This document shows, one piece after another, positions 6,197 through 21,410 of a stretch of 64,000 nt of DNA. Both the position numbers and the translations under genes were made by a program. The stretch's first letter is position 1, and every line of letters starts with the position of its first letter. The stretch comes from Myxococcus stipitatus DSM 14675 (lineage in GTDB: Bacteria > Myxococcota > Myxococcia > Myxococcales > Myxococcaceae): NCBI RefSeq assembly GCF_000331735.1, contig NC_020126.1, positions 3,658,001 to 3,722,000 on the forward strand, in the 5' to 3' direction. Under the pieces are notes generated by a model. It did no database searches. It was not told where the DNA came from and was given only the letters and a program-made list of their open reading frames with translations.

Positions 6197-6751
6197 TTAT
6201 TGCTTCATCCGGTAGGTGGCCACGGTGGTCCACGCCGTCAGCAAGTCCGACGGACGGGGTTCGATGCGCAGGTACTTCACCTTCACCACGCCCGGTCCGC
6301 TCTCCACCGTGCGCAGGAAGTCGGTCAGCTTCCTCAGGTCCACATCGGAGAACGTCAGCTCCACGGAGCTCTCCATGATCTTCCCGTCGCCGATGCCCAC
6401 GTCGCCCTTGGGCGTCATGTTGGGGACCTGGAGGCCCGCGGCCGTGGCCTTGTCCTCGATGTATGAAATCAGCTGCACGTTGCTCGACGTGAGCTGCGTC
6501 TCCACCGACTGACGGCTGGCCTGCGCATCGCGGAAGCTGGCCGCCAGCGCCTGCACCTCTTGCAGCTTCGCCAGCTTGTCCTGCGTGCGCTTGCGATAGC
6601 CGGACGCGCTGTTGGCGAACGTCATCAGCACCGCGAAGACGATGAACACCGCCACCGCCGCGCCGGCGATGGACACCATCCGCCGCTCACGGTCACTCAG
6701 CCGCTCGAACCACGTCTGCAGCGGCGCCAGTGCTTCCTGAAGTTTGGCCAT
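6197..6751 (-). CDS. gspM: Type II secretion system protein GspM
   Basis: 184 residues. A cytoplasmic amphipathic start (MAKLQEALAPLQTWFERLSD) leads to one TM helix at about residues 24-45, then a coiled-coil and ferredoxin-like periplasmic domain (VELTFSDVDLRKLTDFLRTV). GspM forms part of the inner-membrane assembly platform with GspL, GspF and GspC. I chose the ATG at 6751, two bases after the gspL stop, because a GGGGGAG ribosome-binding site lies inside the end of gspL and this start gives the canonical N-terminus. An upstream in-frame codon at 6784 would overlap gspL and add unrelated residues. Confidence 0.9.
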   Translation of the reverse strand: MAKLQEALAPLQTWFERLSDRERRMVSIAGAAVAVFIVFAVLMTFANSASGYRKRTQDKLAKLQEVQALAASFRDAQASRQSVETQLTSSNVQLISYIEDKATAAGLQVPNMTPKGDVGIGDGKIMESSVELTFSDVDLRKLTDFLRTVESGPGVVKVKYLRIEPRPSDLLTAWTTVATYRMKQ

Positions 6752-6753
6752 GA

Positions 6754-8358
6754 CTAGCTCTCCCCCCCTTCCGTCCCGGGGCACTGCACCTGGACATCCA
6801 AGCGGAACGTGACTTTCTGCCCGTCCCGGGTGCGCTCCACCTTGCCCTGCTTCACTTCCTTGAAGCAGGCATGGTTCTTCAGCGCGTTGGACAGCGTGTC
6901 CACCTGCTTGGAGGAGTCCGTCTCGCCCTGGAGGATGACGCGCTCCGTGTCGATCTGGATGCGGTCGAACTTCACCGGCAGGTCCTGCGGCACCTTCTGC
7001 GTCACCTCCGCCAGGAGGTTGACCGCGGACAGCTTGGGCAGCGCCGCCGCCGGGCTCTCCACGCCCTTGAGCATGTTGAGCGCGCGGTTGTAGTCCTTCT
7101 CACACCGCCCCAGGATTCGCTGCGTCGTCTCGCACAGCGCCGCGTCCACCTGCGCCTCGCGCCGCGACAGCACCGAGTTGCGCACCACGCCGAACGCGAT
7201 GAGCAGGAGCAGGAGCGTGGCCGCGAAGGAGGCCAGGAGCCCCAGCTTGTCCTTCACGTAGTCGAAGTCACCCTTGAAGGCGAGCTCGCCCCGCCGGTAG
7301 TTGAACCGAGGCGCTCGCGCCCCGGCCGCATTGCCCCGAAGCGCCAGCGCGTACGCCTGCGCCGCCGTCGGCTGCTCCGCGGTGGGAATCGACTCCGCCG
7401 TGTCCGAGGGAAGCGCGAGCACGCGCACCGGCAGGTTCAGGTCCTTGGAGAGCTGCTCCGCGAGGCCCGGCATCCGCGCCGTGCCACCGCAAATCACCAG
7501 CGCGCCCACCTGCTGCCGCGTGCGCGCCGTGTACGCCTTCAGGGTGGGGCGCAGCTCGCGCAGCAGCGGCTGGAGCCCGCGCGTGAACGCCGCCGCGGCG
7601 CGCTCCGCGTCCGGCCCGCGCGCCGCGCTGGCCATGGCCCCGTGCTGCTCCTTCCAGTGGTGCGCCTCCGCCAGGGACGTCTGGAACTCCGTGGCCAGGG
7701 CCTTGCTCAAGTCCCGTCCGCCGCCCGCGAACGTGCGCGCGAACTGCACGCCCGTGCCCGGCTTGCCGACGGCCACCGAGGTGCGCTCGTGACCGATGTC
7801 CACCACGGCCACCACGCCGCCCTCGCCCGAGCCCTCGAAGAGGCCGGCCGCCTGCTGGAGCAGGTTCTGATAGGCGAGTCCCGGGTGCGTGACGATGCGC
7901 GGGTCCACCTTCAGCTCGGACAGGAGGTCCACCAGCGACTTGAGCTCCTCCTTGCGCACCACGCCCACCAGGAGGTCGCTGGCCTTCTCCTTGCCGTCCG
8001 TCTCCTTCAGGCTGACCACCTGGTAGTCGTAGACCACGTCGGAGATGTCGAACGGCAGCAGGCTGCCCACCTCGAAGGGCAGCGTCGCCTCGATTCGCTT
8101 GCCGTCGGAGAACGGCAGGCTCAGCGCGTGGGTGATGAGCGCCGGGCCGGGCAGGGCGACGACGACCTGGTCGGCGTGCCCTGGCGGCAGCTTGCCGAGC
8201 AGCTCCGTCACCGCGGCGCGCAGCGTGTCGGCGCGCTCGCCCTCTTGAGCGCGGCGCACCTCCACGAAGCTCCGGGTGGCGTGTCCTTTCGTCCGAGCCT
8301 CCAGCACCACGCCCTTCACGGAGTGGCTGCCCAAGTCGAGGCCAAGAATGCGGGCCAT
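6754..8358 (-). CDS. gspL: Type II secretion system protein GspL (PilM-like actin fold)
   Basis: 534 residues. The N-terminal cytoplasmic actin-like/PilM-type domain begins MARILGLDLGSHSVKG, a phosphate-1-type motif, and contains VAVVDIGHERTSVAVG and LVICGGTARMPGL (nucleotide-fold motifs). A single TM helix near residue 375 (LLASFAATLLLLLIAFGVV) precedes a periplasmic domain. GspL bridges the GspE ATPase to the inner-membrane platform. It is longer than the enterobacterial protein (about 400 residues), mainly because the actin-like domain is complete. The start is one base after the gspK stop codon, indicating translational coupling. Confidence 0.92.
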   Translation of the reverse strand: MARILGLDLGSHSVKGVVLEARTKGHATRSFVEVRRAQEGERADTLRAAVTELLGKLPPGHADQVVVALPGPALITHALSLPFSDGKRIEATLPFEVGSLLPFDISDVVYDYQVVSLKETDGKEKASDLLVGVVRKEELKSLVDLLSELKVDPRIVTHPGLAYQNLLQQAAGLFEGSGEGGVVAVVDIGHERTSVAVGKPGTGVQFARTFAGGGRDLSKALATEFQTSLAEAHHWKEQHGAMASAARGPDAERAAAAFTRGLQPLLRELRPTLKAYTARTRQQVGALVICGGTARMPGLAEQLSKDLNLPVRVLALPSDTAESIPTAEQPTAAQAYALALRGNAAGARAPRFNYRRGELAFKGDFDYVKDKLGLLASFAATLLLLLIAFGVVRNSVLSRREAQVDAALCETTQRILGRCEKDYNRALNMLKGVESPAAALPKLSAVNLLAEVTQKVPQDLPVKFDRIQIDTERVILQGETDSSKQVDTLSNALKNHACFKEVKQGKVERTRDGQKVTFRLDVQVQCPGTEGGES

Positions 8359-8359
8359 G

Positions 8360-9760
8360 CTATTCCTCTCTCCAGTACAGGAGCTTGCCCAGCGTGTCGT
8401 CCAGCCGGACCACGGCGGTCAGCGTCTTCTGGACGTTGCCCGCCTCTCCCACCGATTTGATGGTGAACGTCTGACTCTTGTCGCCGATGAGGCGGTTGCC
8501 CGCCACGTTGGACCTGACGGCGGGATTGGCGGCGATGCCGGCGCTCTCCACCACGGCCACGAAGTCCTGCACGGACATGCCGAAGAAGCTGAACATGCGC
8601 GCCGAGCGGATGCGAGTGATGAGCTCGTTGAGGAACACCGGGTCCTTCAACCGAGGGTCCGGCCGCGCCGGGTCCGCCACCGACATGATGGCCAGCCCCA
8701 TCATCACCGGGTCGTCCGTGTTGATGTTGGGCCGTGAGTTGATGTCCGGATACACCGTGAGCCGGTCCTTGAACGCCGCCATGAACTGGTCGTTCACCCC
8801 GTGCACCCGGTACAGCTCGTCGATGCTGTCGAAGCGCGCGTTCTTCGGCTCGTAGCTCGGCTCATAGCGGCTGTAGGACCCTCCCTCGTCGGAGAAGCCC
8901 GAGGGCAGGGGATTGACGGGGTCCGTGCGGTTGATGGCGGAGCCCGTCTCATCGTCGTCCGCCCAGTCCTTGATGGCCAGCATCACGTTCTCGGGCGTGC
9001 TGCGCACCTTGTTCGCGTCGTCGCGCTGCCAGAGGAACTCGAAGCGCTTGTCCTCGAGCATGTCCATCAGCCGCAGCGCGGTGGGCAGCGCGTCGCCCGC
9101 GCCCGCCATCAGGCGGTGCACGTTGAGCTTCTCCTCCTCGTCGGAGATGGTCGACAGGAAGCAGCCCTCGAAGCCTCCGAAAGAGCGGCGCGTCATCTGC
9201 GCGGACATCTCCCGCGAGGCCGGGTCCTCTTCCCCGTCCATCTTGAAGCGCTCGTCGTCCTCGTCCTTCTCCTCGACGGGCGCGATGTCGCTGGAGGTCC
9301 CCTCCGCGCCTTCACTCTTCACCAGGCCCTTCAGGAGGTGGCAGTCCACCCGCGCCATCTTCCAGAGCTGGAGGTTGAGCGACGTGGGCTGCGGGGTGTT
9401 GCCCTGGTTGCCTTGTCCCTGGCCCCCCATGAGGCTGCCGAGCAGGGCCGCGGGGTTGGGGATGGGCGTCTGGTCCACCTGCCGCTGGAAGCGCAGGAGC
9501 AGCCGCGACATCGCCACGCCCGAGCGCGCCATGTAGTACGCGCGCACCTCGTCCCGCTGGTTGGCGGCGAGCTGCAGGTCGACGCGGCTGTTGTACGCGA
9601 ACTCGGTGGCGATGACGGTCAGCAGCGCGATGGACACCACCGCGATGATGAGCGCCACGCCCCGCGAGCGCCGCTCACCGCGCGGGTTGGGCCCCGCTCC
9701 GGGCGCCGCGGATTTCGGACGGCGCCGCCGGGGCGCCTGCTGGAAGAAGGGCAGGGGCAT
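8360..9760 (-). CDS. gspK: Minor pseudopilin GspK
   Basis: 466 residues. After a basic leader (RRSRG) comes a prepilin-type hydrophobic segment VALIIAVVSIALL. It lacks the Glu+5 found in the other pseudopilins, which is diagnostic of GspK, the tip subunit. A large globular domain follows (GRPNINTDDPVMMGL region typical of the GspK family). GspK caps the pseudopilus with GspI and GspJ. The start ATG at 9760 overlaps the gspJ stop by one base (TGATG); longer in-frame reading frames into gspJ are not used. An acidic low-complexity insert (EEKDEDDERFKMDGEEDP) is unusual. Confidence 0.92.
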   Translation of the reverse strand: MPLPFFQQAPRRRRPKSAAPGAGPNPRGERRSRGVALIIAVVSIALLTVIATEFAYNSRVDLQLAANQRDEVRAYYMARSGVAMSRLLLRFQRQVDQTPIPNPAALLGSLMGGQGQGNQGNTPQPTSLNLQLWKMARVDCHLLKGLVKSEGAEGTSSDIAPVEEKDEDDERFKMDGEEDPASREMSAQMTRRSFGGFEGCFLSTISDEEEKLNVHRLMAGAGDALPTALRLMDMLEDKRFEFLWQRDDANKVRSTPENVMLAIKDWADDDETGSAINRTDPVNPLPSGFSDEGGSYSRYEPSYEPKNARFDSIDELYRVHGVNDQFMAAFKDRLTVYPDINSRPNINTDDPVMMGLAIMSVADPARPDPRLKDPVFLNELITRIRSARMFSFFGMSVQDFVAVVESAGIAANPAVRSNVAGNRLIGDKSQTFTIKSVGEAGNVQKTLTAVVRLDDTLGKLLYWREE

Positions 9761-10431
9761 CAGTACCTCGGCAGCTCGGTGTTCAACATGATGCGCGCCT
9801 GGGTGACATAGCGCGCTTCCTTGCCCGTCTCGTCCACGGCCGTCACCGTCATCCGCACACGCGTGGGCAGGATGCTCTTCTGCTCGAGCCGCCGCGTGTC
9901 CCACTCGTCATCCCATTCCTTCTTGTCGGAGTTCCAGTACTCGAACTCCAGCTTCTTCACGCCCTCCAGCAGCACGTCCGTCGTGCCGCCCCGGTCCATG
10001 CGGTCGTCCACGTTGGGATTCGTCCGCCGCTTCAGGTCCAGCCGCCCCTTCGCCTTGCGGTCGTCGCTGGGCTCCACGAAGTACTCCACCACCGCCTGGT
10101 CGGACTCCTTCACGTCCGTGTACAGCCGCTGGTGGGCGAACGTGGTGAACAAGAGCCGGTCGCTCTCTCCCACGAAGTTGGTGGGCCGGTCCTGCTGGTC
10201 GCGGAAGCGCTTCAGGTCGAACCGGTCGCTGACGTACGCGGAGCCAATCTCGCGCGACATGCGGTTCATCGCCACGCGCAGCTGCCGGTAGTGGTCCGCG
10301 TCCGTCTCCACCGTCTCCTTCGCCGTCAGGCCCGTCTGGAAGGCCATGGCCACCACCGTGCCCATCAGGGCGGTGATGGCCACCGCCACCATGACCTCCA
10401 TCAGCGTGAAGCCACGCGCGTGTCGGGTCAT
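9760..10431 (-). CDS. gspJ: Minor pseudopilin GspJ
   Basis: 223 residues. The type III signal MTRHARGFTLMEVMVAVAI has Gly at -1, Phe at +1 and Glu at +5, so it is a substrate for a PilD/GspO prepilin peptidase. A globular domain follows, with FDLKRFRDQQDRPTNF and a basic stretch KAKGRLDLKRRTNP. GspJ forms the tip complex with GspI and GspK. The ATG at 10431 overlaps the gspI stop by four bases (ATGA). The start is well supported by the signal sequence. Confidence 0.92.
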   Translation of the reverse strand: MTRHARGFTLMEVMVAVAITALMGTVVAMAFQTGLTAKETVETDADHYRQLRVAMNRMSREIGSAYVSDRFDLKRFRDQQDRPTNFVGESDRLLFTTFAHQRLYTDVKESDQAVVEYFVEPSDDRKAKGRLDLKRRTNPNVDDRMDRGGTTDVLLEGVKKLEFEYWNSDKKEWDDEWDTRRLEQKSILPTRVRMTVTAVDETGKEARYVTQARIMLNTELPRY

Positions 10432-11354
10432 CGGTCGTTCCTCTGGCTGCCTGGGAAGTTCGGGAACGGCGACCGGGTGCCTCCGCCAAGAATCCCGCCT
10501 CGAGGAGGCGTCGGCGTGCCGCCCCCGCCCTGCGGCTGCTGTGGCTGGCCACCGTTCACCCGCTGCAGCCACTCCGAGCGGCGCATCAGCGGCTGGCGCG
10601 TCTGCGGATGCAGCATGGTGCCGTTGGGGCCAGGGATGGGGTTCGGCACAATCATCCCGGGGCTGTTGGGGTCCACCCACTGGTTGTCCGCGCCCGGCGT
10701 GGTGCCCTGGTTGGGCGTGAAGCCGCCGTTGCGGTCCGAGCCCGGGCCGAGCGACACCACGTGCGTCACCAGGTCGATGCTCTCCACCTGGGTGCCTTCC
10801 TGCCAGTACACGGTGAGGTGCACCTCGCGCACCGCCTGGGTGAGCTGCTGCACCATCTGCGCGAACATGGGCTGCGCCATGCCCATGGCCGCGCCGCCCA
10901 GTCCGCCTCCCGCGGGCTGCGGACCGCTGGGCGTCTTGCCTCCCTTGTCGCCGCCCGCGCCGCCACCGCCGAAGAGGCTGGCGATGCCGCTCATCGGGTC
11001 GCTGGAGTCGCCGCCGATGGGCAGGTTGAAGATGGCGCCGATGAGCTGGTCGGGCGTCACTCCGTCCAGCTTCGGGGCGATGATGCGCGCCTTCCACTTG
11101 AACTGGGTCCAGCCCTCGTCGGAGAAGTCGCCGGACTCCTCGTCGTCGTCGGGCGAGAAGCCGTCGTCGTAGAGCTTCTGCTCCACGTCCGTCATCTTCG
11201 AGCGCGCCAGCAGCGACGCCACCGTGAGCCGCTTGGTGTAGACGTGGTTGGCCACCGCGCCCGCGTTCAGGTCGAAGATGGCCATCAGCGCCATCCCCAG
11301 GATGGCGAGCGCGACGATGACCTCCAGCAGCGTGAAGCCATGGGCTCGCTTCAT
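10428..11354 (-). CDS. gspI: Minor pseudopilin GspI, greatly extended
   Basis: 308 residues, against about 120-130 for typical GspI. The N-terminus MKRAHGFTLLEVIVALAIL is a canonical prepilin signal with Glu+5. After the usual pilin helix there is an acidic patch (DDDEESGDFSDEG), then a glycine-rich segment (about residues 130-160, FGGGGAGGDKGGK), the core strand (REVHLTVYWQEG) and a long Gly/Pro/Gln/Asn-rich tail of about 110 residues ending QRNDR. The tail codes in normal local codon usage and overlaps gspJ by four bases, so it is not a misread. GspI nucleates the pseudopilus tip; the extension may modulate tip contacts with substrates or the secretin. Confidence 0.88.
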   Translation of the reverse strand: MKRAHGFTLLEVIVALAILGMALMAIFDLNAGAVANHVYTKRLTVASLLARSKMTDVEQKLYDDGFSPDDDEESGDFSDEGWTQFKWKARIIAPKLDGVTPDQLIGAIFNLPIGGDSSDPMSGIASLFGGGGAGGDKGGKTPSGPQPAGGGLGGAAMGMAQPMFAQMVQQLTQAVREVHLTVYWQEGTQVESIDLVTHVVSLGPGSDRNGGFTPNQGTTPGADNQWVDPNSPGMIVPNPIPGPNGTMLHPQTRQPLMRRSEWLQRVNGGQPQQPQGGGGTPTPPRGGILGGGTRSPFPNFPGSQRNDR

Positions 11355-12064
11355 CGCGGCACCTCCAGCGCTTCGTCGACGATGTTCACCTTGCCGGTGA
11401 GCGGCGACACATCCAGCGTCCAGACGTTGTCGCCCTGGCTCACGTAGACGTACGCCTTCTCCGTGTAGCCCTGCGGGAAGAAGTAGAGATACGCCACGCC
11501 ACTGTCGACCGCCTCTCGCTGCTGGCGGGTCCAGATGGAGATGCGCACGTCCTCGGGCAGCTCCCGCGCGGGCAGCTCCTCGGACGTGAAGGACGAGAAG
11601 CGCGACACGTTCTCCACGCGCACCTTCTCGCTGTCCATCAGGTCCTGCGTGGAAGGCGTGTCGCCCCCGGTGGTGAGGTAGCTGCGCCGCTCGTCGCGGT
11701 CGCCCCCGCGGCTGTCACGCCGGGACCGCTCGCGCTCGCGGTTCTCGTCGCGCAGCGCGTTGTCGCGGTCCCTCGCCGTCGTCACGCCGCTCTCCGCGCA
11801 CTCCGCATGGTAGCGTGTGGCCTTCTCCTCCTTGGGCTCGGGAATCTCGAACACCAGGCGGCACGTCTTGCCGCGCAGCGCCGCCGAGTCGTAGAGCGAG
11901 CGGATGGTGCCCGCGAGCTCGCCCGCCGCACCCTTCGCCTTGGCGCCGGTGAGCGAGCCGATGCCCATCACCGCCGCGGAGAACAGCATCGCGATGATGA
12001 TGATGGCGATGGAGATTTCGATGAGCGTCAGGCCGCGCTGCGCTCGGCGCTGGGTCTTCTTCAT
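11351..12064 (-). CDS. gspH: Minor pseudopilin GspH
   Basis: 237 residues. The N-terminus MKKTQRRAQRGLTLIEISI contains a prepilin cleavage motif (G|LTLIE) and the hydrophobic helix IAIIIIAMLFSAAVMGIGSL. The body has an unusual charged run (about residues 95-120, rich in Arg/Asp/Glu, such as DRDNALRDENRERERSRRD) ahead of the beta-strand core (VAYLYFFPQGYTEKAYVYV), which is typical of the GspH/FimT family. Start ATG overlaps the upstream gene's stop (ATGA). GspH is the minor pilin linking the tip to the GspG shaft. Confidence 0.88.
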   Translation of the reverse strand: MKKTQRRAQRGLTLIEISIAIIIIAMLFSAAVMGIGSLTGAKAKGAAGELAGTIRSLYDSAALRGKTCRLVFEIPEPKEEKATRYHAECAESGVTTARDRDNALRDENRERERSRRDSRGGDRDERRSYLTTGGDTPSTQDLMDSEKVRVENVSRFSSFTSEELPARELPEDVRISIWTRQQREAVDSGVAYLYFFPQGYTEKAYVYVSQGDNVWTLDVSPLTGKVNIVDEALEVPR

Positions 12065-12507
12065 GGAGCCCCCCCGTTGGCCAGCACGCCTCCACTGCTC
12101 AGGTCCGCGTCCAGACCCACGCCGCCCTTCTTGCCATCCGCGCCGTAGGACACGACCGCGCCGCTCTTGCCGTCCGTCCAGTACACGTAGGGATTCCCCC
12201 ACGGGTCCAGCGGCACGCCGTCCATCAGCTTCGCGTCGATGAGCGGCTGGAAGCCCTCTTCCCGCGAGGGGAAGCGACCCATCAGCCGCTGGTGTGCCTT
12301 GAACTTGCCCTCCATCCTGCGGATGGCGTCGCGCGCCCGGCGCTGGTCCGGCGCCAGCGTGCGGTCCTCCGTCGCGTACACGAGGACGAACGCCAGCACG
12401 CTGGCCACCAGGATGATGAGCCCCAGCACGAGGCGCCCCAGACGATGGGGGCGGGCGGCCCCCGCGGGCGAGGGCGTCTGGGATGGATGGGAGTCGTGCT
12501 CGTTCAT
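12061..12507 (-). CDS. GspG-like protein without a prepilin-peptidase site
   Basis: 148 residues from the ATG at 12507; a GTG at 12549 that overlaps the gspG stop (GTGA) would add 14 residues and cannot be excluded. There is a Pro/Ser leader, an uncleaved TM helix (GRLVLGLIILVASVLAFVLV) and then a GspG-type C-domain: PLDPWGNPYVYW and the calcium-loop signature SYGADGKKGGVGLDADLSS, parallel to the major pseudopilin's loop. There is no G|FTLIE-type cleavage motif and no Glu+5. It is a GspG paralogue anchored as an ordinary membrane protein, sitting between gspG and gspH with overlapping codons, so co-expressed with them. Possible roles are a pseudopilus seed, a chaperone or a periplasmic cap; none is established. 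Confidence 0.85.
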   Translation of the reverse strand: MNEHDSHPSQTPSPAGAARPHRLGRLVLGLIILVASVLAFVLVYATEDRTLAPDQRRARDAIRRMEGKFKAHQRLMGRFPSREEGFQPLIDAKLMDGVPLDPWGNPYVYWTDGKSGAVVSYGADGKKGGVGLDADLSSGGVLANGGAP

Positions 12508-12545
12508 GCCCAAAGCCTGGTCAACACGCGGGAGCTGCGCGTTCT

Positions 12546-12971
12546 TCACTTCTTGCCGGCGGCCGCGTCCGCGGAGGAGATGTCCGCGTCATTGCCCTCG
12601 CCGCCCGCGGTGCCATCCGCGGCGTACGAGATGATGACGGGCTTGCCGCCCTCGTTCAGGTACACGTACTCGTTGCCCCACGGGTCCTTGGGCAGCTGCT
12701 CGAGCGTCTGCGCCTCCACCAGCGCGTTGAGCCCCGAGGACGTGTCCGGGTACTTGCCCTTCTTCGTGTAGTAGAGCTTCAGGGCGCTCTGGATGTTCTT
12801 GATGTCCAGGCCGGCCGTGTCCCGGCGGGCCGCCTCGAGCTGGGGAATCACCGCCACGCCCACGGCGGCGGCGATGAGGCCGAGGATGGTGATGACCACC
12901 ATGATCTCAATCAGGGTCATGCCGCGGCGGTTGCGGCGGCGGCGCTGCTGGCTCTGGGTCGTCTGGCTCAT
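12546..12971 (-). CDS. gspG: Major pseudopilin GspG
   Basis: 141 residues. A basic leader MSQTTQSQQRRRRNRRG is followed by MTLIEIMVVITILGLIAAAV, a textbook prepilin signal with Glu+5. The C-domain carries KDPWGNEYVYLN and the calcium-binding loop SYAADGTAGGEGNDADISS. GspG polymerises into the pseudopilus shaft that pushes substrates through the secretin. ATG at 12971 has AGGTGAG upstream. The calcium loop is intact, in keeping with stability of other GspG filaments. Confidence 0.95.
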   Translation of the reverse strand: MSQTTQSQQRRRRNRRGMTLIEIMVVITILGLIAAAVGVAVIPQLEAARRDTAGLDIKNIQSALKLYYTKKGKYPDTSSGLNALVEAQTLEQLPKDPWGNEYVYLNEGGKPVIISYAADGTAGGEGNDADISSADAAAGKK

Positions 12972-13032
12972 GTCTGCTCTCACCTCGGGGTGACTTTCTG
13001 GCAAGCCACCGCATCGTGTTCAGGACTTCCTG

Positions 13033-13202: not shown

Positions 13203-14459
13203 TCACCGGATGGCCGAGTTCACCTGGAGAATCGGCATCAGGATGGAGAGCGCGACGAATGCAATCACCGCGCCCATCACCACGATGAGCAGGGGCTCCA
13301 GGAGCGAGGTGAGGGCGCCGATGCGCACGTTCACCTGCGTCTCGTAGTTGTCCGCCACGTTGGTGAGCATCTCCTCGAGCTGGCCGGAGCGCTCGCCGAT
13401 GGCGACCATGTGGTAGACGAGCGGCGGGAACTCGCCGGACCGCTTGAGCGGATTGGCGATGCTCTCACCCTCGCGGATGGAGTCGCGGGCCTTCTCGATG
13501 ACCTCGGCCAGCACCGTGTTGGTCATGATGGCCTTGACGATGTCCATGGCGGCGAGCAGGGGCACGCCGCTCTTGAGCAGCGTGGACAGCGTGCGCGCGA
13601 AGCGGGAGATGGACAGCAGGCGCACCAGGCTGCCGACGATGGGCGCGTTGAGCGTGATGCGGTCCCACTTCGGCTTGCCCTTGGGGCTCTTCGTCCAGCG
13701 CACGAACAGCCAGCCGCAGAGCACCATGAAGGGGACGGCGACGAACCACCAGTTCTGGAAGAAGTTGCTCGTGGCGATGAGGACCCGCGTGCTCAGGGGC
13801 AGCGTGGCCTTCATGGTCTCGAAGATCTTGGTGACCTTCGGGACGACGAACACCATCAGCGCGACGAGGATGCCGCCGCCCACCACCATCATGATGGCGG
13901 GGTAGAGCATGGTGCTGAGGATCTTCTGCTGCAGCCGGGCCTGGTTCTCCGTGAAGTCGGCCAGGCGCGTGAGCACCGCGTCCAGGGCGCCGGAGGCTTC
14001 ACCCGCGCGCACCATGTTGACGTAGATGCTGGGGAAGATCTTCGGGTGCTGGCCGAGCGCGTCCGCCAGGGACGAGCCCTCGTTGACGCGCTGCTTGATG
14101 TCGGAGAGGGCGCGCTTGAAGCGCTCCTTCTCCACCTGGTCCACCAGCGCGGTGAGCGACTCCACCAAGGTGACGCCCGCGCCCAGCAGCGTGGACAGCT
14201 GGCGCGTGAAGATGGCGACGTCGTCGGTGTTGACGCGACCGCGACCCAGCTTGCGCAGGTCGATGTCGCGCGCCACCAGCGCCGCGTTGGAGCCCTTGGC
14301 CACCGCGCCCCGACTGCCTTCCGCCTGTGCCAGCACATCCGTGAGGAAGATGCCGTCGGCTTTCAGCTTGGTGCGCAGCGTCTTGGGGGAATCCGCCTCC
14401 AGCAGGCCCTTGATCTGCTTGCCCGCGGAGTTGAGACCTCTGTACTCGAAGACCGGCAT
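13203..14459 (-). CDS. gspF: Type II secretion platform protein GspF
   Basis: 418 residues, the normal length. MPVFEYRGLNSAGKQIKGLLEA opens the family-typical N-terminus. Two homologous cytoplasmic helical domains are separated by TM segments near residues 170-200 (MVVGGGILVALMVFVV), 220-245 and 375-405 (LLIVVMGAVIAFVALSILMPI). Conserved GESIANPLKRSGEFPPLV and AIGERSGQLEEML motifs are present. GspF is the polytopic core of the inner-membrane platform, working with the GspE ATPase to assemble the pseudopilus. It follows gspE with a 40-base gap. Confidence 0.95.
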   Translation of the reverse strand: MPVFEYRGLNSAGKQIKGLLEADSPKTLRTKLKADGIFLTDVLAQAEGSRGAVAKGSNAALVARDIDLRKLGRGRVNTDDVAIFTRQLSTLLGAGVTLVESLTALVDQVEKERFKRALSDIKQRVNEGSSLADALGQHPKIFPSIYVNMVRAGEASGALDAVLTRLADFTENQARLQQKILSTMLYPAIMMVVGGGILVALMVFVVPKVTKIFETMKATLPLSTRVLIATSNFFQNWWFVAVPFMVLCGWLFVRWTKSPKGKPKWDRITLNAPIVGSLVRLLSISRFARTLSTLLKSGVPLLAAMDIVKAIMTNTVLAEVIEKARDSIREGESIANPLKRSGEFPPLVYHMVAIGERSGQLEEMLTNVADNYETQVNVRIGALTSLLEPLLIVVMGAVIAFVALSILMPILQVNSAIR

Positions 14460-14499: not shown

Positions 14500-16311
14500 T
14501 TACATGTCCTCCTGGGTGATGCTCAGCACTTCGGCGATGGTCGTCTCTCCCAACGACACCTTGCGCGCGCCATCCTCCAAGAGCGTCGTCATGCCCTTGC
14601 CGGTGGCGGACTTCTTGATGGTGGAGGCGTCCACGTTCTTCAGCACCAGCTGGCGAACGTCATCGTCCACCGGGAGGAACTCGTAGATGCCCGTGCGGCC
14701 GCGGTAGCCGTTGCGGTTGCACGTGGGGCACCCGGTGGCCTTGTAGATGCGGTCCACGCCGTAGCGCTGCTTGAAGGAGGCGAGCGTGTGGCTCAGCTCC
14801 TTGAGCTCCGCGTCCGTGGGCTGGTAGGCCTCGCGGCAGTCGGGGCACACGCGGCGCACCAGACGCTGGGCGAGGATGCCCGTCAGCGAGGACGCCACGA
14901 GGAAGGGCTCCACGCCCATGTCCACCAGACGGGTGACGGCGCCGGCCGCGTCGTTGGTGTGGACGGTGGAGAGCACCAGGTGGCCCGTGAGCGAGGCCTG
15001 GATGGCGATCTCCGCCGTCTCCTTGTCGCGAATCTCGCCGACCATGATGACGTCCGGGTCCTGGCGCAGGAAGGAGCGCAGGCCCTGGGCGAACGTCAGA
15101 CCAATCTTGGGGTTGATGGCCATCTGGCCAATGCCCTTGAGCTGGTACTCCACCGGGTCCTCGACGGTGAGGATGTTGAGGTCCGGGGTGTTGATCTTCG
15201 ACAGGGCGCCGTAGAGCGTCGTCGTCTTGCCGGAGCCCGTGGGGCCGGTGACGAGGACGATGCCGTGCGAGCGCTTGACCACGGCCTCCATCGACTGGAG
15301 CGTGGCCTTGCTCATGCCAATCTCGGCCAGGTCCAGCAGCGTCGCCGTCTTGTCCAACAGACGCATGACGATGCGCTCCCCGTTGGTCGTGGGGATGGTG
15401 GACAGACGGATGTCGATGTCGCGGCCCGCCAGCTTGATGCGGATGCGGCCGTCCTGCGGCAGGCGCTTCTCGGCGATGTTGAGCTGCCCCATCACCTTCA
15501 CGCGACTGACGATGGCGTTCTGGTAGCGCTTGGGCGGCTTGATGACCTCTTGCAGCACACCGTCCACGCGGAAGCGCACCAACAGCTCGCGCTCCATGGG
15601 CTCGATGTGGATATCGCTCGCGCGCTCCTTGGCGGCGCGGAAGAGGACCGAGTTCACCAGCCGGATGACAGGCGCTTCGTCATCCACGTCCAGCAGGTCC
15701 TGGGGCTCGTCCAGTTCATGGGCGATGGCGTCCAGGTCCTGCGTCTCCATCTCGTCGACGAGCTGCTCGGCCTCGTTGATGGAGCGGTCATAGACGCTGT
15801 TGATGGCGTCGGTGATGGTGCTCTCGAGCGCGAGCCGGGGGCTGATGCTCTGCCCCAGCAGCAGCCGCGCGTGGTCCATCGCGGAGGTGTCCAGCGGGTC
15901 CGCCACCGCCAGCACCACGCTGTCACCCTCCAGGGCCAGCGGGAGGATGTGCGACTGCTTGGCGAAGTTGATGGGGATGCGCTTGACGAGCTCCGCGTCC
16001 ACTTCCTCCGTGAAGATGCGCGCCAGGTAGGGCAGGTCCAGCTGGTGGCCCAGCGCCTTGGCGACGTCCTCGGCGGAGACCGCCTTGAGCCCCACCAGCA
16101 CCTCTCCAATCCGCCCGCCCTTCTCCTCCTGGGCGGCGAGCGCCTCCTGGAGCTTCTCCTCGGTGAGCGAGGGGACGAGCGCGCGGAGAATCTCTCCCAG
16201 CGGCCTTCCGCAGAGGAAGGCCTGCCCGTGGGAGACGACCTGGGTGGAGTCGTTCCGGGCGGTGGCCGTGCCAGTCACGGCGGGAAGGGTGGGGTCGGCG
16301 GTCACGTTCAT
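14500..16311 (-). CDS. gspE: Type II secretion ATPase GspE
   Basis: 603 residues. An N-terminal MshEN-type domain (residues about 30-170, LGEILRALVPSLTEEKLQEA) precedes the secretion ATPase core: Walker A GPTGSGKTTTLYGAL near residue 357, an Asp box, Walker B DPDVIMVGEIRDKETAEIA and the His box LSTVHTNDAAGAVTRL. A tetracysteine zinc element is present (CPDC about 35 residues before CPTC). GspE hydrolyses ATP to drive pseudopilus growth. The ATG at 16311 lies 4 bases after the gspD stop; a longer in-frame extension would run antisense-like through gspD and lacks family similarity. Confidence 0.95.
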   Translation of the reverse strand: MNVTADPTLPAVTGTATARNDSTQVVSHGQAFLCGRPLGEILRALVPSLTEEKLQEALAAQEEKGGRIGEVLVGLKAVSAEDVAKALGHQLDLPYLARIFTEEVDAELVKRIPINFAKQSHILPLALEGDSVVLAVADPLDTSAMDHARLLLGQSISPRLALESTITDAINSVYDRSINEAEQLVDEMETQDLDAIAHELDEPQDLLDVDDEAPVIRLVNSVLFRAAKERASDIHIEPMERELLVRFRVDGVLQEVIKPPKRYQNAIVSRVKVMGQLNIAEKRLPQDGRIRIKLAGRDIDIRLSTIPTTNGERIVMRLLDKTATLLDLAEIGMSKATLQSMEAVVKRSHGIVLVTGPTGSGKTTTLYGALSKINTPDLNILTVEDPVEYQLKGIGQMAINPKIGLTFAQGLRSFLRQDPDVIMVGEIRDKETAEIAIQASLTGHLVLSTVHTNDAAGAVTRLVDMGVEPFLVASSLTGILAQRLVRRVCPDCREAYQPTDAELKELSHTLASFKQRYGVDRIYKATGCPTCNRNGYRGRTGIYEFLPVDDDVRQLVLKNVDASTIKKSATGKGMTTLLEDGARKVSLGETTIAEVLSITQEDM

Positions 16312-16315
16312 GGGC

Positions 16316-18898
16316 TCAGGTTCCCGTGTCCGGCTGGATGCGCAGGCGCTCTTGCGAGGCGTCGCCGGTGGAGTCCGACGCGGGCGCCTCGGGTGCCGGC
16401 TGGACCGGCACGACCGGGGTGGACTCCTCGGAACCCGTGGGAGGAGGCTGCGCTTCCCGCACCTCGGGGTCGCGAGCCTCGGAGGCCGGGGCAGGGGTGG
16501 GCGGCGGCGAGGCGGGCTGCGGGATGTTCTGCCGGTTGGAGGGCGAGCTGTTGGGCCCGATGACGCGGTCACCCGGCGCGCCGCTCTCCACGCGCTGACG
16601 CTCGCGGACGACGGCCTGGTTCATCTTCGCGAGCGGACCCGGCTTGCGGCTGAAGTCCACCGCCGCGTCGTAGCCCGGGAGCTGTCCGTAGAACTGCTCC
16701 ACGAACTGCTGCCGCTCCTTCATCTTGCGCTCCAGGATGATGCGGAAGTCCTCGGGGCCGCGGATGATGTACGGGGTCAGGAACAGGAGCAGGTTGGTCT
16801 TCGTCTTCTTGCGCGTGGTGTCGCGGAAGAGGTTGCCGATGAGCGGGATGTCGCCGAGCACGGGAATCTTGTTCACGGACTCGATGGTGCGGTCCTGCAT
16901 GATGCCGCCCAGCACGACGGTCTCCTGGTCCTTGGCGATGACCGTCGTCTTCGCGCTGCGCTTGCTGGTGGTGGGGCCGAGCACCGGGTTGTCGGAGGCA
17001 ATCTCCTCCGTCTGCTCGGTGATGGCCATGCGGATGTAGTCGCTGTCGTTGATCTGCGGCTTCACCGTCAGCTTCAGCTCCACGTTCTGCCGCTGGATGG
17101 GCGCGTACAGCGAGCCCAGGCCGCCCAGCGCGCCGAGAATCGACGGGTTGAGGCCGCCGTTGGCGCCCGCGCCACCGCCCACCTGGGAGCCCAGCGAGGA
17201 GGGCGTGAAGCCGGACTGGAAGGGCACGTTCTGGCCCACGGTGATTTCCGCCTCCTCGTTGTCGCTGGTGAGGATGTGCGGCGTGGAGAGCACGTTGACG
17301 TCCGCGCTCTGCTGCATCGCGTGGAGCACGATGCCGAAGGCGGGGATGTCCAGGCCCAGCTTCTCCAGCGCCGGAATCACCGGCCCCTGGAGGCCCGCGA
17401 GGAAGCCGCCGAACTGCGCCAGGTTGCCCAGGCTCAGCGAGGGAGGCAGGCCTTGGCCGCTGTTGTTCGTGCCAATCAGGCCCGGCGCCGCGCCCCGGTC
17501 GGTGTTGAGCGAGAAGCCGCTGTGCATGTTGATGCCGAACTCGGCATCCCGCGTCAGGTTCACTTCCATGATGACGGCCTCGACGAACACCTGGCGGCGG
17601 GGCGCGTCGAGCTGCTGGATGACCTGGACGATGTTCTTGTAGTCCGACTGGCTGGCGACGATGACCAGCGAGTTGGTGCCCTTGTCGGCTGAGATCTTCA
17701 CCTCGCCGCTGAACAGCTCCGCGGCCTGGGTGGAGGTGCCGCGGGGAGCGCCGGGCGGCATGTTGGGCGCGCCGGGCGTGCGCGGGCGGTTGGCGGTGCC
17801 CTGGGCCAGCGACTGGAGCGTGCTGGCCAACTCCTCCGCGTTGGCGTTCTCCAGGTAGTAGACGTTGATGCGGCCGCCGGTGCCGGACGGGATGTCGATC
17901 TGCGCGACGATGTCCTGGATGCGCGAGAACGCGGCGGGGCTGGCGACGATGATGAGCTTGTTGGTGCGCTCATCCGGGATGATCTGCGACAGCGTCACCG
18001 GGCCGCCGGAGCTCTCTCCGCCACCCGGCATGGGCTGGGCCATGACCTCGGGGGTGCCCCCCGCGGGCGGGACACCCTGCACGAACGCGCCAGGGCGCTG
18101 ACCGGGGCGGGCGCCCTTGGCCTCGAAGATGCGCTGCACCGTGTTGGCCACGTCCTGCGCGGAGGCGTACTGGACCTGGATGACGCGCAGCTCGTCGCTG
18201 GCGGCGCGCGTGTCCAGCTGGTCGATGAGGCGCTCCAGGCGGTGGATGTTGGAGCCCACGTCGTTGACGATGATGGTGTCGGGCGGGTACGGAATCGTGT
18301 CGCCGTCCTTCGACACCAGCTGCTGCAGCACGCCGCGCAGCGGCTCCACCTCCACGTTGCGGATGCGGAACAGCTTGGTCACCATCTGCTCGTTGGTGGT
18401 GTACGGCTCGCCGTCACCGACGATGGTGGGGATGGGGTTCTGCTTCGCCGACCGCTTGTCGACGATCTTCATGAAGCGGCCGTACTGGTAGGTGGCCAGG
18501 CCGTTGGCGTCGAGCGCGGCCAGGAAGGCGGAGTAGAACGCGTCCGCGTTCACCTCCACGCGGCCATTCTCCGGGCCGATGATGGAGATCTTCCCGCGCA
18601 CGTTCTCCGGGAGGATGAACGTGCGGCAGGTGGCGTCCGCCACCGTCTGGACCAGCTTCTCGATTTCGACCTTGTCGAAGTAGATGCCGTAGCGCGCGTT
18701 GCGCCGGGCTTCCTCGCACGTGGGGATGTTGCGCGCGCCCTGATTGGCCTCGTCGGCGGTGGGCGACTGGGGAGTGATGGTCCGCTCACCCGGCGCCGAA
18801 GGCGCGGAGTTGTCGGGCGGCGGTGGGCGACGCTGGGCCTGCGCGGGGACGGCGAGCGCGAGGCACAGGCAGAGCATCCAGGACGGGAGCGTCTTCAT
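16316..18898 (-). CDS. gspD: Type II secretion secretin GspD
   Basis: 860 residues. A signal peptide (MKTLPSWMLCLCLALAVPAQAQ) is followed by N0-N3 ring domains (N0 near 75-150; N1-N3 motifs such as VEPLRGVLQQLV, PDTIIVNDVGSNIHRLERLI and DERTNKLIIVASPAAFSRI) and the secretin core with VFVEAVIMEVNL and the gate region. The strands VGQNVPFQSGF and VVLGGIMQDRTIESVNKIPVLGDIP are the family signature. A C-terminal tail of about 90 residues is rich in Pro/Ser/Glu and ends QPDTGT; it may be the S-domain for a pilotin or a flexible extension. GspD forms the outer-membrane channel. It begins 24 bases after gspC. Confidence 0.95.
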   Translation of the reverse strand: MKTLPSWMLCLCLALAVPAQAQRRPPPPDNSAPSAPGERTITPQSPTADEANQGARNIPTCEEARRNARYGIYFDKVEIEKLVQTVADATCRTFILPENVRGKISIIGPENGRVEVNADAFYSAFLAALDANGLATYQYGRFMKIVDKRSAKQNPIPTIVGDGEPYTTNEQMVTKLFRIRNVEVEPLRGVLQQLVSKDGDTIPYPPDTIIVNDVGSNIHRLERLIDQLDTRAASDELRVIQVQYASAQDVANTVQRIFEAKGARPGQRPGAFVQGVPPAGGTPEVMAQPMPGGGESSGGPVTLSQIIPDERTNKLIIVASPAAFSRIQDIVAQIDIPSGTGGRINVYYLENANAEELASTLQSLAQGTANRPRTPGAPNMPPGAPRGTSTQAAELFSGEVKISADKGTNSLVIVASQSDYKNIVQVIQQLDAPRRQVFVEAVIMEVNLTRDAEFGINMHSGFSLNTDRGAAPGLIGTNNSGQGLPPSLSLGNLAQFGGFLAGLQGPVIPALEKLGLDIPAFGIVLHAMQQSADVNVLSTPHILTSDNEEAEITVGQNVPFQSGFTPSSLGSQVGGGAGANGGLNPSILGALGGLGSLYAPIQRQNVELKLTVKPQINDSDYIRMAITEQTEEIASDNPVLGPTTSKRSAKTTVIAKDQETVVLGGIMQDRTIESVNKIPVLGDIPLIGNLFRDTTRKKTKTNLLLFLTPYIIRGPEDFRIILERKMKERQQFVEQFYGQLPGYDAAVDFSRKPGPLAKMNQAVVRERQRVESGAPGDRVIGPNSSPSNRQNIPQPASPPPTPAPASEARDPEVREAQPPPTGSEESTPVVPVQPAPEAPASDSTGDASQERLRIQPDTGT

Positions 18899-18922: not shown

Positions 18923-19825
18923 TTAACGAACGTTGTAGGACTTGCGGATCGGCGCTCCGTTGCGCTCGATCTCGATTTCAATGCGGGATGCGTCCTTCAT
19001 CTTGGAATAGACCTCCAGCGCCTTCTCCGGGCTGTTGAGGTCGAATCCGTTGATGCGGCGGATGACGTCACCATTCTGGACGCCAATCTTCGTGTAGATG
19101 GAGTCCGGGCGGATGGAGAAGAGCTTGAAGCCCACGGCCTGGCCGTCCTTGAAGGCGGGGACGATTCGCGCCTGCATGGCCACGGAGTTGAGGTCGTTGA
19201 GCGTCTTGTTGATCTCCTCGCGCGGCACTTCGTACTCGTTGTCGCTGACCGCGCGGATGCCGCTGCTGGGGTTGGGGTTGCCCACCGCCACCGGCGGCGT
19301 GGGAGGAGTGAACGTCCCGGCGCCGTCACCCGGGTTGCCGTCGATGAACTCCTTGCGCCCGTTGTTGATGACGATGACGCGCTCACGCTCGATTTCGTGA
19401 ACGGTGGCGCCTTGCAGCTCGTTGCCCTTCATGTACGTCTGCGCGCGCTGGGTCACCATGTCCTGGATGGAAGCGAAGGACCAATCCGGGTTGCTCGCGA
19501 CGAGCGTGCCCAACAGCTTCACGCGAAGGCCACTCTTCACCGGCTCCGCGTTGAGGTCCGCCAGCGGCGCCGACGGCTCGACCACCGGCTTCTCCGGCTC
19601 CGGAATCTTGATGCCCGTCACCCGCGACAGCCCCTCCATGTCAGGCAGGGCCAGCGCCGCCTGCTGACGTGTCTGGGTGGGCGCACGCGCGTTGGCCCCC
19701 GACGTCGGCACCGGGGAGATGGCGGACTCGACGAACAGGTTCACCGTCTTCGCCGCCAACAGGGCGACGAGCGCGATGAACAGCAGGGTCACTGTCCAGA
19801 AGTATTTGCGAAAGAAGAGTTCCAT
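18923..19825 (-). CDS. gspC: Type II secretion coupling protein GspC
   Basis: 300 residues. A short cytoplasmic start MELFFRKYFW precedes a TM helix at about residues 10-32, then a linker and an HR domain (LLGTLVASNPDWSFASIQD, EIERERVIVINNGRKEFI). A C-terminal PDZ domain spans about 230-300 (IRPDSIYTKIGVQNGDVIRRINGF split across its strands). GspC couples the platform to the secretin and selects substrates. First gene of the gsp operon. ATG at 19825 has GGAAG upstream. The sigma-54 type promoter lies 33-48 bases ahead of it. Confidence 0.93.
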   Translation of the reverse strand: MELFFRKYFWTVTLLFIALVALLAAKTVNLFVESAISPVPTSGANARAPTQTRQQAALALPDMEGLSRVTGIKIPEPEKPVVEPSAPLADLNAEPVKSGLRVKLLGTLVASNPDWSFASIQDMVTQRAQTYMKGNELQGATVHEIERERVIVINNGRKEFIDGNPGDGAGTFTPPTPPVAVGNPNPSSGIRAVSDNEYEVPREEINKTLNDLNSVAMQARIVPAFKDGQAVGFKLFSIRPDSIYTKIGVQNGDVIRRINGFDLNSPEKALEVYSKMKDASRIEIEIERNGAPIRKSYNVR

Positions 19826-19857
19826 CACGCTTCCGAGTGAAAGCCGAACCCGTGGAG

Positions 19858-19873
19858 AGCAAGTCAGGTGCCA
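19858..19873 (-). promoter_or_regulatory. Sigma-54 promoter of the gsp operon
   Basis: On the minus strand TGGCAC (19873-19868), five bases, then TTGCT (19862-19858). This matches the -24/-12 consensus TGGCAC-N5-TTGCW at every fixed position. The predicted transcription start is near 19847, leaving a leader of about 22 bases to the gspC ATG. Two sigma-54 activator genes flank the operon (3504-5138 and 20019-21410), which makes use of this element plausible. Not proven by sequence alone. Confidence 0.72.
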
Positions 19874-19940
19874 TCGTGGGCCAGGCGGGCCATCCAAGGG
19901 GGACGGCCAAGCGCTCGAAATTATTCCAGAAAGGGCGACC

Positions 19941-19987
19941 GTCCCGAGCGAGGGAGCAGGCCGTCCCGGGCCTCGGGACAAATTGTC
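19941..19987. promoter_or_regulatory. Cluster of inverted repeats upstream of gspC (candidate enhancer sites)
   Basis: Within 70-130 bases upstream of the -24/-12 element are GTCCCGAG (19941-19948), the palindrome GTCCCGGGCCTCGGGAC (19963-19979), and GACAAATTGTC (19977-19987). Distance and dyad symmetry fit binding sites for Fis-type helix-turn-helix activators of sigma-54 promoters. Which activator binds is unknown. The 193-base gap between gspC and the response regulator holds no gene. Confidence 0.4.
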
Positions 19988-20018
19988 AAAGCGGGGTGGG
20001 GGCCGGTGTGACGGCCTG

Positions 20019-21410
20019 TCAGTCGTCGGTGCCGGGGGTGGGTTCGCCGCCGGACGACTGCTCGCGCTCCAGCTTGCGATAGATGGTGCGGGCGGCGATG
20101 CCCAACAGTCGTGCGGCCAGCGTCTTGTCGCCCTTGGTGTGGCGCAGCGTCTCGTGGATCACCCGCCGCTCCACTTCTTCCATGGGGGTTCCGATGGGGA
20201 TGACGAGCTGGGACGCGGCGCCGAGCGGGCCCTTGCGCACCGACTCCGGCAGGTCGCTGGCTTCCAGCACCTCGCCTCGCGCCAGCACCACCGCGCGCTC
20301 GACGGCGTGCTCCAGCTCTCGCACGTTGCCGGGCCAGGCGTAGTTCTCCAGCGTCTGGAGCGCCTCCGGGGAGAAGCCGCGCAGGGCCTTGCCATTCTTG
20401 GCGGCGAAGCGGCGCAGGAACGCGTCCGCCAGCAGCGGGATGTCTTCCCTGCGCGAGGCCAGCGCGGGGACGCGAATCTCCACCACGTTGAGGCGGTAGT
20501 AGAGGTCCTCGCGGAAGCGGCCCTCGGCCACTTCCTTCTGCAGGTCCTTGTTGGTGGCGGCCACCAGGCGCACGTCCACCTTCACCGTCTGCGTGCCGCC
20601 CAGCCGCTCGATTTCGCCCTCGGCCAGCGCGCGCAGGAGCTTCACCTGAGCGGACAGGGGCATCTCGCCCACTTCATCCAGGAAGAGGGTGCCGCCGTGG
20701 GCGCGCTCGAAGCGGCCCTCTCGCCGGGCCACCGCGCCCGTGAAGGCGCCTCGCTCCACGCCGAACAGCTCCGCCTCCAGGATGTTCTCCGGCAGCGCGC
20801 CACAGTTGACGGCGACGAAGGTGCCCTTGGCCCGGCTGGAGTACTCGTGCACCGAGCGCGCCGCCAGCTCCTTGCCCGTGCCCGACTCTCCCAGCAGCAG
20901 CACGGTGGCGGTGGAGGGCGCGGCCTGGCGGATGGTGTCCAGCATGGCGCGGAAGGCGGGGGACTGGCCCACCATGCTCCGCCCGCCCGCGGCGCTCATC
21001 TCCGCCAGCTTCGCCTTGAGTGTCTGGTTCTCCGAGACGAGCGCCCGCTTCTCCAGCGCCTTCTGCACCGCCTTCACCAGCGCGTGGCGCTTGAGGGGCT
21101 TGGTGATGAAGTCGTAGGCGCCGTCCTTCATCGCGGCCACGGCGGTCTCCACCGTGCCGTAGGCCGTCATCAACACCACCTCCACGTCCGGGCGGATGGT
21201 GCGCGCCGCGCGGAGCAGCTCCTGCCCGTCCATGCCGGGCATCATCAGGTCCGTCACCATCACCATGACCTCGGGGCGGCGCAGCATCTCCAGCGCCTCC
21301 GTGCCGTTGGTGGCGGCCAGCGTGGCCATGCTCTCCCGTTGGAAGATGCGCGTCACGGAGTCGAGGTTGGCGCGGTCGTCATCGACGACGAGGACGGTCG
21401 AGGTGGTCAT
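20019..21410 (-). CDS. NtrC-type sigma-54 response regulator
   Basis: 463 residues: an N-terminal receiver (VLVVDDD at 7-11, phosphorylatable Asp54 in [10 protein letters not shown], conserved MTAYG Thr, ITKP Lys), an AAA+ domain with Walker A GESGTGKE near 172, the canonical GAFTGA loop near 219, Walker [14 protein letters not shown], and a C-terminal Fis-type HTH ([22 protein letters not shown]). All residues for phosphorylation, sigma-54 contact and ATP hydrolysis are present. No histidine kinase gene is adjacent, so it is an orphan here. It lies directly upstream of the gsp operon on the same strand. It could act on the gspC promoter as a locally encoded activator. It follows the ParB-like gene by 31 bases and may share its transcript. 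Confidence 0.93.

Follow-up and report, generated by a model that had tools for sequence, protein, structure and literature searches.

A predicted sigma-54 promoter with paired enhancer repeats upstream of the type II secretion operon of Myxococcus stipitatus and its conservation in Myxococcota

The type II secretion locus of M. stipitatus

The window, by which we mean the whole stretch of 64,000 nucleotides that was analysed (M. stipitatus DSM 14675, contig NC_020126.1, positions 3,658,001 to 3,722,000), contains a type II secretion system (T2SS) operon. The genes for GspC, D, E, F and G, a minor pseudopilin, GspL and GspM lie in one cluster, and the scores of G, H, I, J, K and L are under some of the NCBIfam cut-offs. 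The operon is followed by a gene for a further activator, and gspF contains a copy of an internal promoter site that has been published for Myxococcus xanthus. The genes and the internal site are as follows:

18923 to 19825, minus strand: gspC (NF041515, 296 bits)
16316 to 18898, minus strand: gspD, the secretin (Secretin, GspD N0 domain)
14500 to 16314, minus strand: gspE (T2SSE, MshEN)
13203 to 14459, minus strand: gspF (T2SSF)
13260 to 13275, minus strand: GGGCGCG-N4-TTGCA, identical to the internal Nla28-type site published for M. xanthus, within gspF
12546 to 13004, minus strand: gspG, predicted start (T2SSG, N_methyl)
12061 to 12549, minus strand: second GspG-like gene, predicted start, directly after gspG (T2SSG)
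11351 to 12202, minus strand: gspH-like open frame (TIGR01708, below cut-off)
10428 to 11354, minus strand: gspI-like gene (TIGR01707, below cut-off)
9760 to 11097, minus strand: gspJ open frame, in which the gene probably starts near residue 225 (T2SSJ, N_methyl)
8360 to 9904, minus strand: gspK open frame (T2SSK; NF037980 below cut-off)
6754 to 8358, minus strand: gspL-like gene (PilM_2, PilN; TIGR01709 below cut-off)
6197 to 6784, minus strand: gspM (T2SSM)
5222 to 6193, minus strand: gspN (TIGR04411, 306 bits)
3504 to 5138, minus strand: FHA-AAA+-HTH sigma-54 activator, directly after gspN

Upstream of gspC, a gene for an NtrC-type activator ends 193 bp from the first gene of the operon. 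The region between the two genes and its borders comprise the following features:

19858 to 19873, minus strand: sigma-54 (-24/-12) element TGGCACCTGACTTGCT, starting 48 nt 5' of the gspC ATG
19914 to 19928, minus strand: TGGAATAATTTCGAG / GGAATAATTNC, a third conserved block from 30 aligned Myxococcaceae regions, located between the predicted enhancer and the promoter
19976 to 19988, minus strand: UAS2, predicted enhancer inverted repeat TGACAATTTGTCC, starting 115 bp upstream of the -24 element
20009 to 20021, minus strand: UAS1, predicted enhancer inverted repeat TGACAGGCCGTCA, starting 148 bp upstream of the -24 element
20019 to 21410, minus strand: NtrC-type activator, taken as the Nla4 orthologue and proposed as the activator (receiver, AAA+ with GAFTGA, Fis-type HTH)

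UAS1 overlaps the end of the upstream gene, nla4, so that the TGA stop codon forms part of the repeat.

The promoter element upstream of gspC

A preliminary description of the sequence had placed a full match to the -24/-12 consensus 33 to 48 bases before the gspC start codon. This match was recovered: from position 19873 to 19858, the minus strand reads TGGCAC-CTGAC-TTGCT, which agrees with TGGCAC-N5-TTGCW at 11 of 11 positions and has the GG at -24 and the GC at -12 at the correct spacing (the gspC ATG is at position 19825). TGGCACCTGACTTGCT is the only perfect match in the 64-kb window, for which 0.06 are expected from dinucleotide shuffles. In the entire genome, which consists of a single contig of 10,350,586 bases, five perfect matches including TGGCACCTGACTTGCT were found, and the reversed pattern yielded three. 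With five matches against three for the reversed control, the bare -24/-12 match is weakly informative, and the evidence for a promoter is rather carried by the place 5' of gspC and by conservation. A simple scan of positions 19780 to 20100 did not reveal any sigma-70-like promoter and, between nla4 and gspC, any terminator-like site.

Conservation of the promoter in Myxococcota

The preliminary description had proposed to look for the element in relatives. The gspC gene was found in all 61 genomes of a first set and in 173 of 179 genomes in a phylum-wide search. Upstream regions were available for 122 gspC loci, including 12 paralogous copies; one locus that is cut by a contig end was dropped. 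In the remaining 121 loci, the promoter was scored within the last 130 nt 5' of gspC, and the expectations were obtained from dinucleotide shuffles. An element matching at least 9 of 11 positions is kept in 112 of the 121 loci (1.9 expected), one matching at least 10 of 11 positions in 101 loci (0.3 expected) and the perfect element in 77 loci (0.0 expected). The nine loci without an element of at least 9/11 (L035, L036, L041, L061, L062, L065, L066, L067 and L092) include five paralogous copies, and three of these have the module of enhancer and promoter 5' of a further gspC-like gene located upstream.

For counting by genus, the 12 paralogous copies were left out. At least 9/11 positions are matched in 63 of 66 genera, and the element is perfect in 41 of 66. 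Among the three genera that lack it, two have a 9/11 candidate farther upstream (L036 and L092) and one has a second gspC-like gene ahead (L035). Since the 66 genera represent the better-scoring gspC places among the matches listed and are therefore biased to less divergent genera, 20 loci from 15 more divergent genera were added. Of these 20 loci, one of which has just 182 nt of upstream sequence, 10 have the element, as do 8 of the 15 genera; the genera g58, g66, g67, g69, g72, g74 and g75 lack it. In the combined set, 71 of 81 Myxococcota genera have an element of at least 9/11 in the last 130 nt, and 10 do not (3 of 66 and 7 of 15). The predicted promoter-enhancer design is widespread in Myxococcota and not universal, being weak or absent in some divergent families. 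In two genomes of the family f19 (loci L367 and L368), perfect TGACA-N3-TGTCA repeats lie 5' of gspC and no -24/-12 element is found in 400 nt.

Place and conservation leave almost no doubt that the gspC promoter is real and functions as such. The opposite view, that the -24/-12 match is a functionless chance resemblance, can point to the reversed control, which has three perfect matches in the genome where the -24/-12 pattern itself has five. However, the conservation across loci and genera rules it out for practical purposes, and the paired repeats, their helical phasing and the target specificity described below contradict it as well, which leaves it extremely improbable.

It has also been reported that the regulator Nla28 binds at an internal promoter before MXAN2511 in the same T2SS operon of M. 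xanthus; the Nla28 DNA-binding domain shifts a MXAN2511 fragment, and loss of nla28 leads to less developmental mRNA (PMC9765219). Together with the copy of this site at positions 13260 to 13275 and the nla4-gspC gap without a terminator-like site, these data would fit an operon that is mainly driven by the Nla28-dependent internal promoter or by read-through from nla4, with the gspC site mattering little. However, the internal site is a poor match to the consensus, would be unable to transcribe gspC to gspF and lies within conserved coding sequence, so that its conservation is not creditable to promoter function. By contrast, the gspC site is perfect in M. stipitatus and conserved in most of the genera. 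A main role of the internal promoter or of read-through is thus very unlikely.

Putative enhancer repeats and helical phasing

The palindromes that had been noticed 70 to 130 bases farther upstream are both real, but only the first one (115 bp) falls in this range, whereas the second one (148 bp) lies beyond it. The consensus of both repeats is TGACA-N3-TGTCA. In the alignment of 30 Myxococcaceae upstream regions, the conserved islands correspond to UAS1, UAS2, the block GGAATAATTNC and the promoter. The block at positions 19914 to 19928 is a possible site for another factor. Repeats matching at least 8 of 10 positions occur once or more in 116 of the 121 gspC loci (9.2 expected) and twice or more in 91 (0.5 expected). 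By genus, the numbers are 65 of 66 and 53 of 66, and in the 15 divergent genera at least one repeat occurs in 12 and at least two in 7. The spacing between paired repeats is mostly 31 to 33 or 40 to 41 bp. In the own genome, the UAS pair occurs a single time, at the 5' side of gspC.

When periods between 6 and 16 bp were scanned with one locus per genus, the distances between the promoter and the nearest repeat were best described by a period of 10.47 bp, about one turn of the DNA helix. Phasing of this strength at 10.5 bp did not occur in any of 20,000 random sets, a figure that overstates independence because the genera are related; on the 30 distinct distances alone, the p-value is about 0.007. 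The elements, their conservation and their phasing can be read directly from the genomes, with predicted activator sites lying upstream of the promoter and helically phased with it. The TGACA-N3-TGTCA repeats very probably constitute a functional enhancer, and the earlier proposal that the gsp operon is under sigma-54 control gains strong support from the fact that promoter and enhancer are conserved in a large part of the phylum.

Occurrence of the module in other places

An enhancer-plus-promoter pattern was derived from the gspC locus of the window; matches at the main gspC genes are therefore partly built in, whereas matches elsewhere are not. The 27 genomes of the genus contain 41 matches, comprising the 27 main gspC genes, 13 gspC-like paralogues and a single place elsewhere, and the reversed control pattern did not match in the same 27 genomes. 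The strict pattern does not match at the majority of the 44 gspC-like paralogous places listed for the genus. A second gspC-like place in the own genome (L126, near position 9790000; locus positions 1994 to 2137) has a promoter of 10/11, TGGCATCGTGATTGCT, and two repeats, one of 10/10 at 128 bp and one of 9/10 at 115 bp. This place was missed owing to the limits of the strict pattern, and the same applies to L127. A module with a shorter gap has one match in the genus (G021).

Of 174 genomes in the phylum, 80 and 21 are matched by the strict patterns. The wider-gap pattern has 62 matches outside the genus, of which 46 are located before listed gspC genes; 14 of the other 16 comprise seven gspC-like genes, four genes for proteins with a MYXO-CTERM-like tail and three genes that are not gspC-like. 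The shorter-gap pattern has 25 matches in the phylum, of which nine precede listed gspC genes, and 11 of the other 16 comprise four gspC-like, six MXAN_2561-type genes and one MXAN_2562-type gene (L319, L320, L331 and L332 were classed by resemblance alone). This target specificity is, like the phasing, directly observed.

Across named bacterial genomes, the strict module is present at no fewer than 115 loci, and 30 of those listed precede gspC-like genes, including that of M. xanthus AM003. The other clusters among the matches listed are located 5' of Hsp70, Hsp20, Cpn10 and ClpB genes, mostly outside Myxococcota. Thus, the idea that the repeat is specific to the T2SS in all bacteria had to be rejected, and other activators may read such repeats.

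The chaperone clusters (L135, L145, L150 and L223), in which TGACA-N3-TGTC is combined with a -24/-12 element, include 11 Hsp70, eight Hsp20 and three Cpn10 genes and a ClpB pair among the matches listed. One member of each cluster was confirmed by Pfam, and the records are mostly labelled Verrucomicrobia, Lentisphaeria or Bacteroidales. The arrangement hints at a sigma-54-controlled heat shock response in these bacteria. Moreover, the module precedes gspC-like genes at L139, L149, L240 and L245, in records that are labelled Deltaproteobacteria, proteobacterium or Bacteriovorax. Going by these labels, the arrangement may reach beyond Myxococcota. A further record, BNCN01000003.1, is titled Comamonas sp. 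KCTC 72670 and contains a Myxococcus-type nla4-gspC region with an Nla4 protein that is 91% identical (L144); the title is probably wrong.

A surface protein family as a probable second target

Of the loci matched by the module patterns, L330 and L334 are assigned by NCBIfam, with scores above the cut-off, to the MXAN_2561 family, whose members carry a MYXO-CTERM anchor; L333 likewise exceeds the cut-off for the MXAN_2562 barrel. L318 is below the MXAN_2561 cut-off and above that of TIGR03382, and L316 matches TIGR03901 below its cut-off. Members of the MXAN_2561 family were matched in 61 of 61 relatives, 34 of them over the cut-off. For counting promoters, 30 loci were returned, three of which were dropped as their start could not be located. 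In all of the 27 scored loci, which belong to close relatives, a -24/-12 element of 9/11 or 10/11 is present, and the repeat TGACA-N3-TGGCA is located 97 to 99 bp upstream of it. The promoter and the repeat form conserved islands in the alignment. The own genome also contains a MXAN_2561-family gene with the same arrangement of promoter and repeat (L356; G000:C1:3741060-3741953, outside the window). MYXO-CTERM proteins have been reported to get to the cell surface via the T2SS (PMC11980579). Reuse of the design at the operon of this surface protein would thus link the T2SS with at least one protein that it probably exports.

Candidate activators

The preliminary description had noted activator genes at both ends of an operon that appears to be under sigma-54 control. 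Both genes are where they had been located, and the upstream one encodes a protein with a receiver, a Sigma54_activat AAA+ domain containing the GAFTGA motif and a Fis-type HTH, as is typical of NtrC-type enhancer-binding proteins. The protein is 91 to 92% identical to the activator whose gene precedes gspC in M. xanthus AM003 (L148). In M. xanthus, nla4 is Mxan_2516 (PMC2875238) and MXAN2514 encodes GspD (PMC3222651). Because of the 91% identity to the neighbour of gspC in AM003 and the location of nla4 close to the gspD gene, the activator of the window is taken as the Nla4 orthologue.

The Nla4 orthologue adjoins gspC in several families and is located elsewhere in most of the other genomes tested. 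In a search of 30 genomes, most of which have no nla4 gene in the gspC region initially retrieved, a match of at least 54% identity was found in 29, three of these being incomplete; activators other than Nla4 do not exceed 52% among the matches listed. The recognition helix RTIYRKL of Nla4 is nearly invariant; neither the FHA activator nor the eight highest-scoring other activators listed for the own genome have it. From adjacency, co-occurrence and helix conservation, we infer that the Nla4 orthologue is the best candidate for binding the repeats.

It is conceivable that promoter and enhancer are functional and that the repeats are bound by the FHA protein or by another activator, with Nla4 being a mere neighbour. 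Of 25 genomes from the genus, 23 encode the FHA activator on the gspC contig, and TGACA-N3-TGTC sites exist elsewhere in bacteria 5' of unrelated genes. Moreover, clear covariation between the repeats and the Nla4 helix was not found, as the repeat variants TGCCA-N3-TGGCA of the family f5 are not accompanied by a matching change of the helix, and one genome of 85% completeness (G155) has the promoter and the repeats and a best Nla4 match of 45%, i.e. no clear orthologue. However, among 16 other genomes of the order that were searched, only three have the FHA gene beside the operon, and the promoter and the repeats persist without it. In addition, the recognition helix of the FHA protein differs from that of Nla4, and an Nla4 match is found in nearly all genomes tested, whether adjacent to gspC or not. 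Taken together, binding by an activator other than Nla4 appears unlikely, albeit less so than the readings weighed above. Of the two activators noted earlier, the upstream one, the Nla4 orthologue, is a good candidate, while the downstream one is not specifically supported. As a main regulator of the operon, the FHA activator was discarded since neither its adjacency nor its recognition helix tracks the repeats.

Proposed mechanism

The model that we favour, and that we regard as likely as a whole on the basis of the genome comparisons, is sigma-54-dependent transcription of the gsp operon with an Nla4-type activator acting at the repeats. RNA polymerase with sigma-54 would wait as a closed complex at positions 19858 to 19873 and transcribe the gsp operon from there. 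An NtrC-type activator, for which the Nla4 orthologue is the most likely candidate, would bind as dimers to both TGACA-N3-TGTCA repeats from the same side of the helix, form a DNA loop and open the promoter at the expense of ATP. DNA looping is the standard mechanism of enhancer-binding proteins. The use of sigma-54 in vivo, the binding by Nla4 and the looping step are what we infer from the arrangement. The design is probably old in Myxococcota and appears to be reused at paralogous gspC operons as well as at the operon encoding a MYXO-CTERM surface protein of the MXAN_2561 family and an outer-membrane barrel.

Relation to known systems

The control of pilA by PilR is a related case, in which a type IV filament system is governed by sigma-54 and an NtrC-type activator that acts at TGTC-containing sites. 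It differs from gspC in that a pilus rather than a T2SS is made and in the activator and the arrangement of the sites.

The preliminary description had held that sigma-54 dependence is not a usual part of accounts of T2SS operons, which is partly outdated in view of three studies (PMC12316311; PMC9765219; PMC9743648). Sigma-54 control of the myxobacterial T2SS has already been predicted in a 2025 survey, in which T2SS COGs are enriched for predicted sigma-54 control in Myxococcia (aRpoN-DB; PMC12316311). In the accessible part of this survey, the prediction is made at the level of COGs, without an enhancer, an activator or a shared regulon, and Polyangia are named for COG2165 only; entries of aRpoN-DB may list this very gspC promoter. 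The internal Nla28 promoter of M. xanthus, published in 2022, likewise combines a sigma-54 site with an NtrC-type activator in a T2SS operon. Unlike the gspC promoter, it is located inside the operon and has a weak -24/-12 element, a different activator and CT(C/G)CG(C/G)AG half sites. The sections of that study consulted here mention neither the gspC promoter nor the TGACA-N3-TGTCA repeats nor a control of the T2SS by Nla4 (PMC9765219). In Plesiomonas shigelloides, the T2SS-2 cluster was found to be positively regulated by RpoN using RNA-seq and qRT-PCR (PMC9743648). This system is likewise a sigma-54-regulated T2SS, but it belongs to a gammaproteobacterium, and in the text available neither direct control nor an activator is demonstrated (PMC9743648).

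Mutants of nla4 grow slowly in rich medium (PMC7910581) and do not sporulate normally (PMC7910581; PMC2875238; PMC4048283). The accessible parts of these studies deal with growth, ppGpp, lipid bodies and development and draw no link to secretion. A search of the openly licensed literature did not uncover a paper on the gspC enhancer or on a control of the T2SS by Nla4. The enhancer, the assignment of Nla4 and the shared regulon thus appear to be new.

Biological implications

To our knowledge, the control of T2SSs is usually described species by species. The present analysis points to a single enhancer-promoter design that is common to most of the Myxococcota genera examined and that links the secretion system with a surface protein. 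Moreover, Nla4, a known regulator of growth and development, gains a concrete candidate target and a candidate binding site. It may be speculated, although we consider it rather doubtful, that Nla4 is a dedicated activator of type II secretion and surface display, that the growth, ppGpp and development defects of nla4 mutants arise from lost export and that this regulon is part of the reason why sigma-54 is vital in M. xanthus.

In M. xanthus, sigma-54 has been described as vital for a reason that was left unexplained (PMC2725144), and pilD, encoding the prepilin peptidase, could not be deleted (PMC12075869). A MXAN2510 insertion mutant is viable and has motility and spore defects (PMC9765219). 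This viability weakens the view that loss of the T2SS is the sole reason for the essentiality of sigma-54, and T2SS loss alone may not be the whole answer. The predicted sigma-54 dependence of the gsp operon would be a possible contribution to explaining this essentiality.
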